From the NCBI RefSeq assembly GCF_030296055.1, contig NZ_AP027370.1, positions 1,848,501 to 1,912,500 on the forward strand: DNA of 64,000 nucleotides. The letters run 5' to 3'. Source of the DNA: Hydrogenimonas cancrithermarum. Its GTDB lineage: Bacteria; Campylobacterota; Campylobacteria; Campylobacterales; Hydrogenimonadaceae. Positions 30,241 to 36,766 of this stretch are shown here, one piece after another; positions within the stretch are counted from its first letter, which is position 1; each line of letters begins with the position of its first letter. The notes beneath the pieces are model-generated. The model saw only the letters and a program-made list of their open reading frames with translations. It searched no databases and had not been told where the DNA came from. Position numbers and translations under genes: made by a program.

Positions 30241-30383
30241 GCCCGCGATTGACCTTCATTTTGGAGTGGCTTCTTACTTATTAATATTATATCATAGTTC
30301 CGGATGGGTTATCACTCCTATTTGTCCAATCTGTCGTGAAGAGAAGCCGTTTGATTTGAGCTTGTTAATTAAAATGAATATCT

Positions 30384-30468
30384 CACCGATATACACATGG
30401 ATCGGCTAGAATAACCATCGGATTCCAGTTTGCAGGTTTTGCCTGTCAATCGTTTGGAGGAGACTATC
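30384..30468 (+). promoter_or_regulatory. Conserved leader of DUF1800 cassette A
   Basis: About 85 bases before the ATG match the leader of cassette B (33752-33836) closely, including TCACCGATAT, CATCGGATT, CAGGTTTTGCCTG (a small hairpin) and the ribosome site TTTGGAGGAG. A TAGAAT at 30407-30412 may be the -10. No riboswitch sequence is found between 30241 and this element. Confidence 0.6.
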
Positions 30469-32079
30469 ATGAACAAACGTATATTGAAACTTTTGCTCGT
30501 TGCCTTTGCCGTTATGGCGACGATGGCCGGATGCGGTGAAGGCGGTGATGAGGCTGTAGTCTCTACGGTACCGAGTACACCGATCGTGTCGCGTTCGACA
30601 CCGCTCGAGATGATTGGCGACGAAAGTTTCAATGCGTTGAGTGAAGAGGACAAAATTTATGTCGCGAACAAGCTCTACACGACTTTCTATAAGGGTGTCG
30701 ATCTGGAGACACTGAAGGGAAAGATTGCTTCGGGCCATTTTATTTCCGACTTTTACGCCACGTTACATTCCGACGACGTAGCGCAGCCGGATCTGGACAA
30801 AATAAAAAAAGATGAATACGAGATCGCGGATGGAAAAAGATTTGGTGGTCCTTTGACGGAAAAGTTCAGAAGTATCTACACGGAAATTGCGACGACGCTC
30901 TATTACACGAAACTGAGCAAATCCTACTACGATGCATGGATGGCTTATATACTTGATCAGACCATTCTCTTTTCGCCGGGATGGGAGATCGAGAGTGTGC
31001 ACCCCTTCCCGGAGCTAATATCGAGCAATTACAATAGGTTGAAGGATGGGATTTCCAAGGATATGCCTATCAAGAAGATCGCTTATGCGCACATGGTTTC
31101 TAAAGAGAACTGGGCACGCTTCAGAAGTTCTGAAGACAATGGGCGTGAGATGCTCGAGATATGGCTGTATGACTTCAATGATTTAGATGTTCCTTTGGCG
31201 GCCAAGGCACTGAAAAATTGGAGGTGGGAAGTCCGATATGAGCCGGTTAGCGATATGGCGAGAGATTATGCATATTATCACTTCAACGATACTACCAACG
31301 CTGATGAAAAGAATGCCGAGCCAATAGAGCTACTTGGGACTACTATCACTACTGGCGAAGACTTTTACCACGCTATCGTGAATCATGAGGATTTCATGCA
31401 CGGTGTGGTGCTACGGCTCGTCAATATCTTTTTCCCCGATTATACGGAGGAGAAAAAAGTTAAAATTGTCAACGCTATCATTGAGACAAATCCTACAACT
31501 TTTAGAGATATTTTTGAAGAGATTCTTTTTTCTAAAGAGTATCTCTTCAATTCCAACAGGGTTAAATCTTACGAAGAGATATATATGGGACTCGCCCATA
31601 AACTCGATATAAATCCTGGGTATGAAATTTTTGGCTTTTTTCATCAAACCGGAAGACAGGTTTATGAGGGTGGTTTGGTCGTTTCGAAACAGGAAGCTTT
31701 TACGTACAAGCTTGGAAGAAGTGACAGGGTGCCTTCCGACTCCGACAGTGTTATGAGACTCCATCTCAATATCAGAGATGAGGTTTTCCTAAACAGAAGA
31801 GGTTCGAGAGGATGGAATTATTCAAATCTTCTTTCCAGATATTATAACGACGATACGACACTTAAAGGGTATTTGAACAATATGTTTCTCGATATTGTTG
31901 GAAGAAACATGACTGAGATGGAGGAGAAAAAACTTATAGAAGTTGCTACAAATGCCGGATGTGTAAGTGCCACCGGATTTGACAAATTTCCGATTATGCT
32001 GATGGCGTTCGACTATTTTTCGAGACTGAGTGAAGTTTATGTATACAGGAAAGTAGAAGTGGAAGGAGATGCATCATGA
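30469..32079 (+). CDS. DUF1800-like lipoprotein, cassette A
   Basis: The ATG at 30469 follows GGAGGAG; the frame opens earlier but without a ribosome site. The 536-residue protein starts with a lipoprotein signal ending ATMAGC (cysteine near residue 22). Its middle has RSSEDNGREMLEIWLYDFND then VPLAAKALKNW, which I match to the DUF1800 core (N-x-A-R-E-x-x-E-L-x-T then A-A-R-x-L-x-G-W). The family has no settled biochemical role and often precedes DUF1501 genes, as here (ATGA overlap). Cell location: lipid-anchored in the envelope. The first ~70 codons nearly equal those of cassette B; the rest has diverged. Confidence 0.77.
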   Translation: MNKRILKLLLVAFAVMATMAGCGEGGDEAVVSTVPSTPIVSRSTPLEMIGDESFNALSEEDKIYVANKLYTTFYKGVDLETLKGKIASGHFISDFYATLHSDDVAQPDLDKIKKDEYEIADGKRFGGPLTEKFRSIYTEIATTLYYTKLSKSYYDAWMAYILDQTILFSPGWEIESVHPFPELISSNYNRLKDGISKDMPIKKIAYAHMVSKENWARFRSSEDNGREMLEIWLYDFNDLDVPLAAKALKNWRWEVRYEPVSDMARDYAYYHFNDTTNADEKNAEPIELLGTTITTGEDFYHAIVNHEDFMHGVVLRLVNIFFPDYTEEKKVKIVNAIIETNPTTFRDIFEEILFSKEYLFNSNRVKSYEEIYMGLAHKLDINPGYEIFGFFHQTGRQVYEGGLVVSKQEAFTYKLGRSDRVPSDSDSVMRLHLNIRDEVFLNRRGSRGWNYSNLLSRYYNDDTTLKGYLNNMFLDIVGRNMTEMEEKKLIEVATNAGCVSATGFDKFPIMLMAFDYFSRLSEVYVYRKVEVEGDAS

Positions 32080-33458
32080 GACGAAGAGATTTTATAAAAA
32101 CAACCATCGCAATGGCGGCGGCGACAGCGCTTTTACCCTCTTCTGCAGAGGCCGATGTCGTACCTGTGGATGCAAGCAACCCGCTGCCTATGGATCAGGT
32201 TGTGTTCGATAAAGATATATTCGACAAAAACGATGCTCAAACCATCATAATTTTCCTGAGTGGCGGGATGAGTGATGTTGTGGGAAACGTAAAGCATGTA
32301 TTGGAGGACATAATACCCAACGATATGTCTTTGAAAAAATATCCAGATAAACTCATCTCTCCGACTGATAACGGTTTTTGGAAAGAGGCTGGTGGAGACT
32401 ATTTGGAAGATATGCTCGTTTCAGGTAATCTAAATGTTTTCAGGACCTGTTATAATCCAACTGCTGCTTTAGCTCATGGAATAAACCAAAAAAGATATAT
32501 GAATGGCAATGAAGCAGGTTTCAATTCAGGAATCGTTACAACACTTATGCATGTGTTGAATCGAAACAATGCAGTTTCGAAAGATGCTATTTTGACAAAT
32601 GTCGCTATAAATGGTAGTGATTATCGACTGTTGGAAGATGGTGCAACTCCTACGATGCTGCCAGATTTTTTACGGCCTGCATCTTTCAATAGGAACCTTC
32701 AAAATGTCTATAATTATGCGATGACCTCAGATGGTTTGGTATCGGTGGGAGATACGAGTGCCACTGAAAAACTCAATGCAGCTAATTTCAGTACGGAGTT
32801 GACGGCTCTTTCACAAGAGCATAATTTATATGACGCGCTTAGCGATATTTTCAATCGTCGAGGTGAAATGAGTGATTTCCTCGATGAAATCGTCAATGGT
32901 GATCTACCTGTTCAATATCCTTCAACTGTGGATGGCACAAGGGTGGAAGCGGCAATGCGAATACTGATCAACAATCCTTCTACCAAAATAGTGAGCATGG
33001 TTGGAGGTTACAATGGATGGGATGATCACTCCAATGCTATAGAAAATCATACCAAGCGGGCTTCCCAATTGTTTGAAGCGATAAAAGTTGCGATAGATCA
33101 TGCCGGAGCTGTTGGGAAAGATAGTATCAATATCGTGGTTTTCGGTGATTTCGGACGCAATTTGACGCTCAACAGTGCGGGTGGATGGGATCATGGGAAC
33201 AACCAGGTCCTCTACTGGTTTGGTGGAAAAAAGTTTTTCAATCAGCTTGGCATTGTCGGTGAAACATACCTGGACGAGCATGTCAAGAAATATCGACTAT
33301 ATTCCCATCCGACTGACTCATCCTATCAACTCCGACCTTATTCAATCGCCGCGACGATCTATGCGCTTTACGGTGTGGAAAATCCAGAAGTTCTGACAGG
33401 CGGCGCCGGCATCATCGATCCTGTGGATTACACCGGGAAAACTTTTTTGAGGGGATGA
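32076..33458 (+). CDS. Tat-exported DUF1501-family protein, cassette A
   Basis: The 460-residue protein has a twin-arginine signal (RRRDFIKT then a hydrophobic stretch to about residue 28). DUF1501 landmarks: IIIFLSGGMSDVVGN near the start of the mature part, YNGWDDHSNA and FGDFGRNLTLNS followed by GWDHGNNQV, which place metal/phosphate-binding residues of the alkaline-phosphatase-like superfamily. The substrate is unknown. It is translationally coupled to the DUF1800 gene. Codons are AT-richer than in the cassette B homolog, so the two copies have had different histories. Confidence 0.82.
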   Translation: MRRRDFIKTTIAMAAATALLPSSAEADVVPVDASNPLPMDQVVFDKDIFDKNDAQTIIIFLSGGMSDVVGNVKHVLEDIIPNDMSLKKYPDKLISPTDNGFWKEAGGDYLEDMLVSGNLNVFRTCYNPTAALAHGINQKRYMNGNEAGFNSGIVTTLMHVLNRNNAVSKDAILTNVAINGSDYRLLEDGATPTMLPDFLRPASFNRNLQNVYNYAMTSDGLVSVGDTSATEKLNAANFSTELTALSQEHNLYDALSDIFNRRGEMSDFLDEIVNGDLPVQYPSTVDGTRVEAAMRILINNPSTKIVSMVGGYNGWDDHSNAIENHTKRASQLFEAIKVAIDHAGAVGKDSINIVVFGDFGRNLTLNSAGGWDHGNNQVLYWFGGKKFFNQLGIVGETYLDEHVKKYRLYSHPTDSSYQLRPYSIAATIYALYGVENPEVLTGGAGIIDPVDYTGKTFLRG

Positions 33459-33528
33459 CTCTGTAACTTCGAATTTTCTTTTTTGAGCTTTGATTTTATT
33501 GATTAATGTTTTTTTAAGCTACAGATAA

Positions 33529-33534
33529 TATAAT
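33529..33534 (+). promoter_or_regulatory. -10 element (TATAAT) of the riboswitch transcript
   Basis: TATAAT ends seven bases before the first base of the riboswitch, so transcription would start at or near 33541, exactly where the aptamer begins. No clear -35; the region upstream is T-rich. Confidence 0.65.
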
Positions 33535-33535
33535 T

Positions 33536-33612
33536 AGGTTAGATAAATGCCAAACCTGTTGTGAAGCAGGGACGGAAAGCCACGGGTCTTGTGAAAGATA
33601 GCCGGGTTGCCT
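33536..33612 (+). promoter_or_regulatory. Cyclic-di-GMP-I (GEMM) riboswitch aptamer
   Basis: The core GCCAAACC, a six-pair stem closed by a GTGA tetraloop (CCTGTT/AGCAGG), GGGACGGAAAGCCACGGGTC, a second GTGA-capped stem (GTCTT/AAGAT) and GATAGCCGGGTTGCC follow the GEMM-I consensus in order and spacing. Two positions differ from consensus, G to C in GGCAAACC and C to G in GACGCAAAGCC; as I align them to Vc2 they are the paired bases 21 and 46, so the changes compensate. The bases I align to G20 and A47, which contact the ligand, are kept. It precedes the cassette B lipoprotein gene by about 225 bases. Confidence 0.92.
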
Positions 33613-33679
33613 CTTCTTTACAATGAGAGAAGAGTAAAATTTAGGAAATAGATACTCCTAATCCTTCCCTCTTTACTCT
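33611..33679 (+). promoter_or_regulatory. Possible expression platform with alternative hairpins
   Basis: Hairpin 1 pairs CTCTTCT (33611-33617) with AGAAGAG (33628-33634). Hairpin 2 pairs AGAGTAAA (33631-33638) with TTTACTCT (33672-33679) around an inner TTAGGA/TCCTAA stem. They share AGAG and cannot form together, as expected for a switch. There is no T run after either, so classic intrinsic termination is not evident. The rest of the 378-base gap holds only the leader of cassette B. Confidence 0.45.
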
Positions 33680-33751
33680 CCAAGTTTGACATAATCTGAA
33701 TGTTGTTTTCATAAATAGAAGTGAAAAGTTTGTTAATGAAAATGAATTTTT

Positions 33752-33836
33752 CACCGATATGCGGATAGATGTACTATACTAGCCGTCGGATTTTAACCAA
33801 CAGGTTTTGCCTGTCAATCGTTTGGAGGAGACTATC
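33752..33836 (+). promoter_or_regulatory. Conserved leader of DUF1800 cassette B
   Basis: Matches the cassette A leader, including the CAGGTTTTGCCTG hairpin and TTTGGAGGAG ribosome site. TATACT at 33775-33780 could be a second, riboswitch-independent -10. Confidence 0.6.
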
Positions 33837-35441
33837 ATGAACAAACGTATATTAAAACTTTTACTCGTTGCCTTCGCCGTTATGGCGACGATGAGTGGAT
33901 GCGGAGGAAGCGGTAGTGAAGAGGCTGTAGTCTCTACGGTACCGAGTACGCCGATCGTGTCGCGTTCGACACCGCTCGAGATGATCGATGACGAAAGCTT
34001 CAATGCACTGAGTGAAGAGAACAAAGTTTATGTGGCGAAGAAACTTTATGGAACACTCTTCAAAGGGGTCGATATCGGCACCCTCGAAGAAGAGATCTCT
34101 ACGGGAAAGTTTATTTCGAATTTTCATACGAGACTCTACAGTAAAGTTGCACAACCCGATGCGGACAAGATACTGGTCGATACATCGGGCCCTATGGATG
34201 ACGAGCTTCGTCGTGGCGATTCGATACCCGCCAAAGAGGCCTTGATCATGAGAGAGATCGACTCGAGGCTCTATTTTACGAGACTCGGCGACGAGTATTA
34301 CGGTGACTGGATCGCTTATACGCTCAACCAGACGATCATGTTCTCACCCGCATGGGAAGTGGAGAGTGTTTACAAATTTCCCGAACTGATCGCCAGCAAC
34401 TTCGACCGGCTCCGTGCGAGAATCAACGCGGACGTTTCGATCAAAGATATCGTGAAAGAGCATATGATGTCGGTAGAGAACTGGTCCAGGTTCAGAAGCC
34501 CTGAAGACAATGGCCGTGAAATGCTCGAAATTTGGCTCTACGACTTCAACGACAACGACGTCCCGCTCGCCGCGAGAGTGTTGAAGAACTGGCGCTTTCT
34601 CAACCATGACGGTTATTCGCATACCTACTCTTTCATCGATGGTGTAGGCGACGAGGAGAACAACGAAACGGTCGTCATTCTCGGACACGAGCTGCGGACG
34701 GGAGAAGATTTCTTTTCGATGATCGTGAATCATGAAAATTTCCTCTATACAGTCGTCAACCGCCTGGTCGGGCGCTTCTTCCCCACTTTCGACGAGAGTG
34801 AAAAAGAGTCGATTACGCAGAAGATTCTCGCCTCAGACCCAAAAACGTTCAAAGATGTATTCGACCAGATTCTCTTTTCCAAAACCTATCTGTTCGAATC
34901 CGACAGAGTGAAAAGCCTGGAAGAGACCGCATTCGGGTTGATGCATACGGCCGGTTACAATGCCCAGTACAAGACATTCGTTACGACATATCAGCGTGCG
35001 CTCACCGCCGCCAATCAACGCTCGATGACCTATAAACTCGGGCGCGAAGACAAGGTGCCGGTCGATACCGTCAGCATGGCGGAGTATTACAAATATATCC
35101 GCGAGTACATCGTGCTTAACCGTGACGAGTCCGCCAATTATTCAGGAGACGATGGGATCGATCTCGGTGCCATCTCCGAACGATACGACGCATCGGATAT
35201 GCGGAGCTATCTGAATGGAATCTTCCTCGACTTTCTCGGAAGGGAGCCGACGGATCGGGAGTTTACCCTCCTTTCGGAATATTTCGAAAACAAGGTGACC
35301 TATCAGGACAAGCGGTTGGGAGATTTGAACGAGCCTACGAGCAGAGCCTACATCGTCATGATCACGCTGGACTATATAACCCGTCTTAGCGAGTTCTATC
35401 AGTACAGAAAAATCACGGATACCGAAGGGGGTGTGCAATGA
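33837..35441 (+). CDS. DUF1800-like lipoprotein, cassette B (downstream of the GEMM riboswitch)
   Basis: 534 residues, starting at the ATG at 33837 behind GGAGGAG. The signal peptide ends ATMSGC (lipobox cysteine near residue 22), followed by a Gly/Ser/Glu linker. The DUF1800 core is RSPEDNGREMLEIWLYDFND with VPLAARVLKNW. It is a paralog of cassette A: nearly identical for the first ~200 coding bases and the leader, then clearly diverged, with GC-richer codons. Expression probably responds to cyclic di-GMP through the riboswitch starting at 33536, unless the proximal TATACT promoter dominates. The molecular function is unknown. Confidence 0.78.
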   Translation: MNKRILKLLLVAFAVMATMSGCGGSGSEEAVVSTVPSTPIVSRSTPLEMIDDESFNALSEENKVYVAKKLYGTLFKGVDIGTLEEEISTGKFISNFHTRLYSKVAQPDADKILVDTSGPMDDELRRGDSIPAKEALIMREIDSRLYFTRLGDEYYGDWIAYTLNQTIMFSPAWEVESVYKFPELIASNFDRLRARINADVSIKDIVKEHMMSVENWSRFRSPEDNGREMLEIWLYDFNDNDVPLAARVLKNWRFLNHDGYSHTYSFIDGVGDEENNETVVILGHELRTGEDFFSMIVNHENFLYTVVNRLVGRFFPTFDESEKESITQKILASDPKTFKDVFDQILFSKTYLFESDRVKSLEETAFGLMHTAGYNAQYKTFVTTYQRALTAANQRSMTYKLGREDKVPVDTVSMAEYYKYIREYIVLNRDESANYSGDDGIDLGAISERYDASDMRSYLNGIFLDFLGREPTDREFTLLSEYFENKVTYQDKRLGDLNEPTSRAYIVMITLDYITRLSEFYQYRKITDTEGGVQ

Positions 35442-36766
35442 AACGACGTACATTTTTGAAAACGAGTCTGAGTTTGGCGGCGATCGCCGGCCTGAATCCC
35501 TCTTTGTTCGCGGAGACAGGGGTACCCTTGCCGCTGGAAGCGGTCGATTTCGATGCAGGTTCGGATGCCCAGACCATCGTCATCTACCTGATGGGCGGAA
35601 TGGGCGATATCATCGGCAATATGACCAATTTCGACCAGATCGTCGATGAAAATCTTTCGCAGATTGCTTATCCGATGGACAAGTTCACGAAAACGGCCGA
35701 CGGATTCTGGCGCGAAGCGGGCGGAGAGTATATCCAGTCGATGCTCGACGAGGGGAATCTGACGGTATTCAGGACATGCGAACAGACGGACGTTCTCAAA
35801 GCGCACAAGCTCAACCAGGTGCGTTTCATGCACGGCAACGACCAGGGGTATGAATCGGGAATCGTAACGACATTGATGCATGTGCTCGGCCGCTTCAATG
35901 CCGTGCCGGAAGATGCCTTCATGACCAACGTCTCTTTCGTCGACAGCAATTTTGAACTGCTGACCGACAATGCCGTCTCTTCCGGGCTCCCTTCCCATCT
36001 CAAACCGGTCTCTTTCGGCCTCTCGGTCAAAAACCCATTCGCGAGAAAAGCGGGCCTTCTCTATCAGGACGACGATTTGCTCGACAGGCTCAGCTTCGAG
36101 ATGAACGCGAGAGCGGGAAACAACGCCAAAATCGGCCGAATGTTCTCTTCGAGAGAGGATCTCGAAGCGTTTATGGAAAATCTGGCTTCCTCTTCGCTTC
36201 CTTCCGGTATCGACTATACGATCGGGGGAACCTACGACAAGTTCAATTTTGGAAAACAGCTCGAAGTCGCGATGCGGATACTCGTGGAAAACCCCGATAC
36301 GAAAGTGGTTTCGATGACGACGGAGTCGTGGGACGACCATTCGAACGCGATCGCCCAGCATACCGACAGAGGCTACCACCTCTTCAGGGCGGTCCATATG
36401 GCGATGGAGCACGCCAAAGCGCTGGGCAACGAGAACATCAACATCGTTCTCTTCGGAGATTTCGGACGCAATCTGAACATCAACAGTGCCTACGGATGGG
36501 ACCACGGGAACAACCAGTGCGTCTATTTCATCGGTGGGAAAAAACATTTCAACCATCGGGGTATCGTAGGAGAGACGGTGCTGGACGAGACCATGCTCTC
36601 GATGGGAAGGATCTACACCACGCCGGCACCGGGATCCTACAAGTTCGAACCCTACGCCATCGCTTCCACGCTATACAAACTTTACGGCGTCAAAAACCCG
36701 GAAGTGCTTACAGGCGGCAGAAAAGCGATAGGGGACGAGCTGGATGTTCCCTTTTTGAAAGGGTGA
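35438..36766 (+). CDS. Tat-exported DUF1501-family protein, cassette B
   Basis: 442 residues; starts inside the lipoprotein stop (ATGA). Twin-arginine signal MKRRTFLKTSLSLAAIAGL, then IVIYLMGGMGDIIGN, TTESWDDHSNA and LFGDFGRNLNINS with GWDHGNNQ, the DUF1501 landmarks. The two copies share all these blocks, so both are probably active. A strong hairpin follows the stop codon. DUF1501 belongs to the alkaline-phosphatase-like fold by family knowledge, but the substrate has not been settled; a role on envelope or polysaccharide is inferred only from the neighbourhood. Confidence 0.83.
   Translation: MKRRTFLKTSLSLAAIAGLNPSLFAETGVPLPLEAVDFDAGSDAQTIVIYLMGGMGDIIGNMTNFDQIVDENLSQIAYPMDKFTKTADGFWREAGGEYIQSMLDEGNLTVFRTCEQTDVLKAHKLNQVRFMHGNDQGYESGIVTTLMHVLGRFNAVPEDAFMTNVSFVDSNFELLTDNAVSSGLPSHLKPVSFGLSVKNPFARKAGLLYQDDDLLDRLSFEMNARAGNNAKIGRMFSSREDLEAFMENLASSSLPSGIDYTIGGTYDKFNFGKQLEVAMRILVENPDTKVVSMTTESWDDHSNAIAQHTDRGYHLFRAVHMAMEHAKALGNENINIVLFGDFGRNLNINSAYGWDHGNNQCVYFIGGKKHFNHRGIVGETVLDETMLSMGRIYTTPAPGSYKFEPYAIASTLYKLYGVKNPEVLTGGRKAIGDELDVPFLKG

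Follow-up and report, generated by a model that had tools for sequence, protein, structure and literature searches.

The window (the whole 64,000-nucleotide stretch of Hydrogenimonas cancrithermarum DNA analysed here) contains two paralogous gene cassettes for exported proteins, and all features described below lie on its forward strand (+). Cassette B comprises a ribosome-binding site, GGAGGAG (33824–33830), a gene for a DUF1800-like lipoprotein of 534 aa (33837–35441), and a gene for a DUF1501 protein of 442 aa (35438–36766), which begins with the twin-arginine-type leader MKRRTFLK. Cassette A (30472–33458) encodes paralogues of both proteins and has no riboswitch. The DUF1501 label that the initial annotation gave to these systems is sound: PF07394 (cutoff 27 bits) matches at 30.8 bits in A, 35.9 bits in B and 46.4 bits in a third cassette of the genome. 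Its DUF1800 label is weak, with PF08811 scoring 12.1 bits against a Pfam cutoff of 26.1 and giving weak matches in 3 of 15 members, and the gene is therefore named DUF1800-like only. The predicted structure of the DUF1501 protein resembles the alkaline phosphatase/sulfatase superfamily; a structure search with the DUF1800-like protein against the PDB returned no match. Operons of DUF1800 and DUF1501 genes are known from other contexts, such as the neighbourhood of bacterial chitin synthase genes (PMC5122149).

An all-family Rfam scan of the window returned a single match at gathering score, located at 33540–33615 upstream of cassette B. The covariance model of the c-di-GMP-I (GEMM-I) riboswitch, RF01051, scored 64.9 bits against a gathering cutoff of 35, in agreement with the GEMM-I elements recognized earlier from the sequence. 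Also present, as had been reported, are the two GTGA tetraloops (33561–33564 in P2 and 33591–33594 in P3) and a TATAAT upstream of the aptamer (33529–33534). In the model alignment, the bases equivalent to the Vc2 ligand contacts G20, A47 and C92 (numbering per PMC4744006) are 33549, 33576 and 33610, and all three are canonical, so the claim that the contact bases are kept stands. G20 and A47 are invariant among 41 aligned aptamers. The match in the all-family scan was itself to RF03167, c-di-GMP-I-GGC (E 7e-12, 60.8 bits with a cutoff of 59), a family whose diagnostic base, read from its name and model consensus, is G47; position 33576 is instead an A and the score is below that of RF01051, and thus canonical c-di-GMP-I is the better label. 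The cGAMP class (GEMM-Ib), which we take to be marked by A20, was likewise rejected, given the G at 33549. With all three contact bases canonical, we infer that the ligand is c-di-GMP. On these sequence grounds, the feature is a real riboswitch of a known class, c-di-GMP-I.

Covariation was evaluated over P1, P2 and P3 in 41 aligned Campylobacterota aptamers. Paired cells amounted to 91.7%, compared with 81.3% in shuffled columns, the covariation score was 0.398 against 0.196 (reached by 0 of 500 shuffles), and two-sided changes numbered 128 against 43. P2 and P3 were paired in 98.5% and 97.1% of cells, respectively, with two-sided changes in both. The initial annotation had pointed to a G-C to C-G change at pair 21/46 (C33550-G33575). 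This change is compensatory, since G-C occurs at two loci (L099 and L110), but it is not local: the pair is C-G in 39 of the 41 aptamers, and the flip is thus a lineage trait. In Sulfurovum-type aptamers, pair 22/45 has changed from C-G to U-A. P1 is poorly formed in the window aptamer, where pair 14/93 is A-C; this pair forms in 10 of 24 Hydrogenimonas aptamers, and 51% of P1 cells are paired across the phylum. At the site of the P1 3' strand lies a 9-bp hairpin (33611–33634) that starts from nucleotide 93. In the comparison of 24 Hydrogenimonas leaders, a hairpin starts exactly there in 15, against 11% at other offsets, with a mean z of −2.26 (−0.02 at other offsets).

The riboswitch had been proposed to possess its own promoter, and this is supported by the −10 element TATAAT (33529–33534) and strengthened by a conserved direct repeat with 11-bp spacing upstream of it, ATTAAT-GTTTT-TTTAAG (33502–33518), a HP1043/HsrA-type box and probable activator site. 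The spacing between box and −10 is the same at C1:27086–27118, in front of the second riboswitch of the genome, and we infer that distal transcription starts near 33541. The pattern TTAA-N7-TTAA was found in 9 of 24 Hydrogenimonas riboswitch promoters, with 0.29 expected; eight of the nine boxes lie 45–48 nt before G20, and each of the other spacings occurred zero times or once among the 24. Genome-wide, the box followed by a −10 element was detected at 26 sites, as opposed to 4 for the reversed pattern, and this set of 26 includes the two riboswitch promoters. The sites make up a promoter class that a single OmpR-type regulator probably controls. The HP1043/HsrA site is TTTAAG-N5-TTTAAG (PMC8345958, PMC5253667), with which 33502–33518 agrees at 10 of 12 positions. 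Seventeen OmpR-type regulators are encoded in the genome, including a close HP1043 homologue at C1:865348 (structure 2hqr, E 2.6e-87). At another locus (L145), a GEMM-I precedes a gene for a response regulator that shares 60% identity with C1:539565 of the genome studied here, which makes C1:539565 a second candidate. In that locus (L145:1636–2423), the regulator and its GEMM-I adjoin a second GEMM-I in front of a DUF1800-like/DUF1501 cassette, and a GTAATRYT-type 11-bp repeat is found in both GEMM-I promoters. An OmpR-family protein of the HP1043/HsrA/CosR type is the probable activator of the distal promoter.

A second putative promoter lies 3' of the riboswitch, with a −10 element TATACT (33775–33780) preceded by the element GTTAATGAAAATGAATTTT (33732–33750). 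Both are conserved across six orthologous leaders, and the upstream element also occurs before cassette A. It weakly resembles a Fur box; the match (13–14 of 19 positions) is not significant alone, and this assignment was rejected. A promoter located downstream of the riboswitch and shared with cassette A would be a new feature. Over ~245 bases (30359–30600 and 33727–33971), a segment that in B starts at 33727 and covers the start codon and the signal peptide, the two cassettes show 85% identity, whereas the whole proteins are ~50% identical, a contrast that points to local gene conversion or to a shuffled duplication. What they share is the proximal promoter region, and therefore either B gained the riboswitch or A lost it. 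Before cassette A, a search with filters off found nothing above 7.5 bits, consistent with the absence noted in the initial annotation. One match (at L079) considered as a cassette A aptamer proved to be that of B, cut by the locus end. The further claim that only cassette B is switched is not supported: a second GEMM-I lies at C1:27121 before the third DUF1800-like/DUF1501 cassette, so that two of the three cassettes detected in the genome carry one. With a proximal promoter region shared with A, cassette B could also be expressed without the riboswitch promoter, and the suggested exchange of A for B as c-di-GMP changes does not follow. The genome contains 36 GGDEF matches.

Among the 18 genomes of the family, 15 contained GEMM-I aptamers, 24 in total, with 17 of the 24 preceding DUF1800-like/DUF1501 genes (15 complete pairs and 2 DUF1800-like genes cut by a contig end). 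Of the remaining seven, one is found before the gene of a beta-propeller lipoprotein, another is at the end of a contig, and five stand upstream of genes for surface lipoproteins of a different type. The five consist of a tandem pair in G016 (G016:C1:966511–966743, L034), situated before a surface lipoprotein gene, and one case each in G010, G004 and G015; carboxypeptidase-regulatory-like domains are present in the protein of G015, and the lipoproteins of the other three genomes were grouped with it through similarity or synteny. Switched and unswitched cassettes occur together in two genomes (G005 and G007), and a third (G013) has unswitched cassettes only. A contig search with one DUF1501 protein as query returned nothing. 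Named genomes were then searched for the DUF1501 family and scanned with a custom covariance model, and an aptamer directly before a DUF1800-like gene was also found in Sulfurovum, a Sulfuricurvum and others. In the phylum as a whole, the aptamer was present in 43 of the 397 genomes sampled. Between 7 and 10 GEMM-I aptamers are present in each of three Campylobacterota genomes (G049, G250 and G418); several of those in G049 precede genes for large exported proteins, one of which has a long Asn/Gly/Thr repeat. Near DUF1501 genes, two AT-rich, GEMM-like matches with marginal scores of ~20 bits (L183:1338–1423 and L126:1328–1408) may be decayed aptamers.

Downstream of the hairpin, the pyrimidine-rich strand TCCTTCCCTCTTTAC (33662–33676) pairs in the predicted leader fold with 33561–33576, which comprises the loop and 3' strand of P2, J2-3 and A47, and the pairing can be extended by GTTTG (33684–33688) with CAAAC (33551–33555). 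Genus-wide, complementarity to this aptamer segment exceeded that of dinucleotide shuffles with a mean z of 1.7, a value that is not a probability because the leaders compared are related and not independent. The same measure was ~0 upstream of the aptamer and weak (0.47) further downstream, and it fell to about zero when the bait was reversed or taken from P3. Matched aptamers and leaders were more complementary than swapped ones (0 of 5000 permutations). The result persisted at 0.0008 without the trio G004, G010 and G015, in which changes in the aptamer are mirrored in the anti-aptamer element. All native P2 pairs were broken in the predicted fold of 21 of 24 full Hydrogenimonas leaders, while P2 was kept in 23 of the 24 sequences when the aptamer was folded alone. 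The cost of the native fold had a median of 6.4 kcal/mol over the 24 leaders and was 13.7 in that of the window (−51.5 kcal/mol unbound against −37.8 with P2 intact), a cost that tight ligand binding, as in Vc2, could presumably cover. Among leaders from other families, P2 was broken in only 2 of 11, and those of Sulfurovum type gave a mean z of 0.5 with no permutation signal for the anti-aptamer strand. By these sequence comparisons, the signal is clear in Hydrogenimonas only. An anti-aptamer strand aimed at P2 and a hairpin at nucleotide 93 would both be new features.

The computed elements (aptamer, contact bases, anti-aptamer complementarity, hairpin, conserved promoter elements and association with the cassettes) can be assembled into a model in which the ligand, the start sites, the regulator and refolding in the cell are presumed. 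Transcription would start at the distal promoter, probably with an activator of the HP1043/HsrA/CosR type, and the aptamer would be the first part of the leader to fold. With c-di-GMP bound, P2 and J2-3 would remain folded. With no ligand, 33662–33676 would pair with P2, J2-3 and A47 and unfold the sensor, and the hairpin at nucleotide 93, taking the place of P1, would bring the aptamer and anti-aptamer strands together. In the bound state, a C-rich, G-poor stretch would be left free, at which Rho could terminate transcription ahead of the cassette (OFF), while in the unbound state this stretch would be hidden from Rho. The C/G ratio is ~2 in aggregate at +20 to +60; a C>G skew of this kind is ordinary in single leaders, that of the window included, and could itself result from complementarity to a G-rich aptamer; it therefore points only faintly to Rho. 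The promoter at 33775, past the riboswitch, would add a ligand-independent level of expression and may dominate that of cassette B. Leaving the direction of switching aside, we favour with modest confidence a c-di-GMP-I riboswitch with an anti-aptamer platform, forming part of the leader of a cassette for exported proteins. An OFF direction is close to a guess, and we lean towards it only slightly over ON.

The same riboswitch and anti-aptamer strand could work in the ON direction, with c-di-GMP relieving an inhibition that the unbound fold imposes (through pausing, poor read-through or decay), a serious possibility that we rate as somewhat doubtful. The great stability of the unbound fold is consistent with it, and Vc1, an ON switch that lacks a terminator and an anti-Shine-Dalgarno sequence and precedes a gene for a secreted protein (PMC4744006), offers a precedent by analogy. 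On the other side, no intrinsic terminator was found in the leaders, the anti-aptamer helix is followed by no consistent U-tract, and pairing between the ribosome-binding site and the leader showed no excess over permutation. A classical GEMM-I arrangement, in which P1 competes with the hairpin at nucleotide 93, the 3' strand of this hairpin pairs downstream when ligand is bound and the complementarity to P2 is incidental, appears unlikely. The hairpin does use the P1 3' strand, and AGAGTAAA is able to pair with TTTACTCT in the window; however, the P1 strands of the genus were no more complementary than permuted ones (119 of 500), pairing of the hairpin 3' strand with downstream sequence was not better than permuted (236 of 300), and the complementarity to P2 is specific. 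Less likely still is a riboswitch nearly irrelevant to B, with the aptamer transcript a side product or trans-acting and the cassette driven by a proximal promoter region that is conserved and common to the unswitched cassette A, as the aptamer is kept directly before cassettes in several species and genera and covaries strongly.

Returning to the riboswitch with an anti-aptamer platform, its fullest form would be a lineage-specific GEMM-I that has abandoned P1 for a strand antisense to P2, J2-3 and A47, is set between a regulator-activated and a ligand-independent promoter, and defines a c-di-GMP regulon of DUF1800-like/DUF1501 exported proteins in Campylobacterota; this we propose tentatively, holding it slightly more in doubt than in belief. 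Several bacterial groups contain DUF1800/DUF1501 pairs, which are functionally uncharacterized. A c-di-GMP riboswitch conserved upstream of such pairs in several Campylobacterota genera links them to a signal of surface and sessile life and offers a direct handle for testing them; a search of the open-access literature found no link of c-di-GMP to DUF1501 or to Hydrogenimonas. An anti-aptamer strand acting on P2, if true, would be an added switching route for a well-studied riboswitch class.

Among known systems, the Helicobacter HP1043/HsrA promoters (PMC5253667, PMC8345958) share two TTTAAG-like half-sites, spaced 11 bp apart and lying just before the −10 element, and a close homologue of their regulator is also present here; 33502–33518 is a candidate site in a genome with its 17 OmpR-type regulators. 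With Vibrio cholerae Vc2 and RF01051, the aptamer shares the P2/P3 architecture, a GNRA tetraloop in P2 and the bases G20, A47 and C92, and it differs in the C-G pair at 21/46, the weak P1, the hairpin at nucleotide 93 and the downstream strand antisense to P2 and J2-3. V. cholerae Vc1, located before gbpA (PMC4744006), is similar in that its aptamer lies nearly flush with the transcription start (its G20 equivalent is G12), its leader is long (244 nt) with no terminator or anti-Shine-Dalgarno sequence, and its target is an exported protein, whereas here there is a conserved anti-aptamer strand and a putative second promoter between aptamer and gene, and the target genes are different. In the cGAMP riboswitch of Geobacter pilM (PMC9262584), as proposed here, downstream sequence sequesters the ligand pocket in the unbound state; there, the C92 equivalent is captured and a terminator is used, while here P2/J2-3 and A47 would be captured, no terminator was found and G20 predicts c-di-GMP. 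What is new with respect to the known class lies in the proposed anti-aptamer platform, the promoter layout and the target genes.
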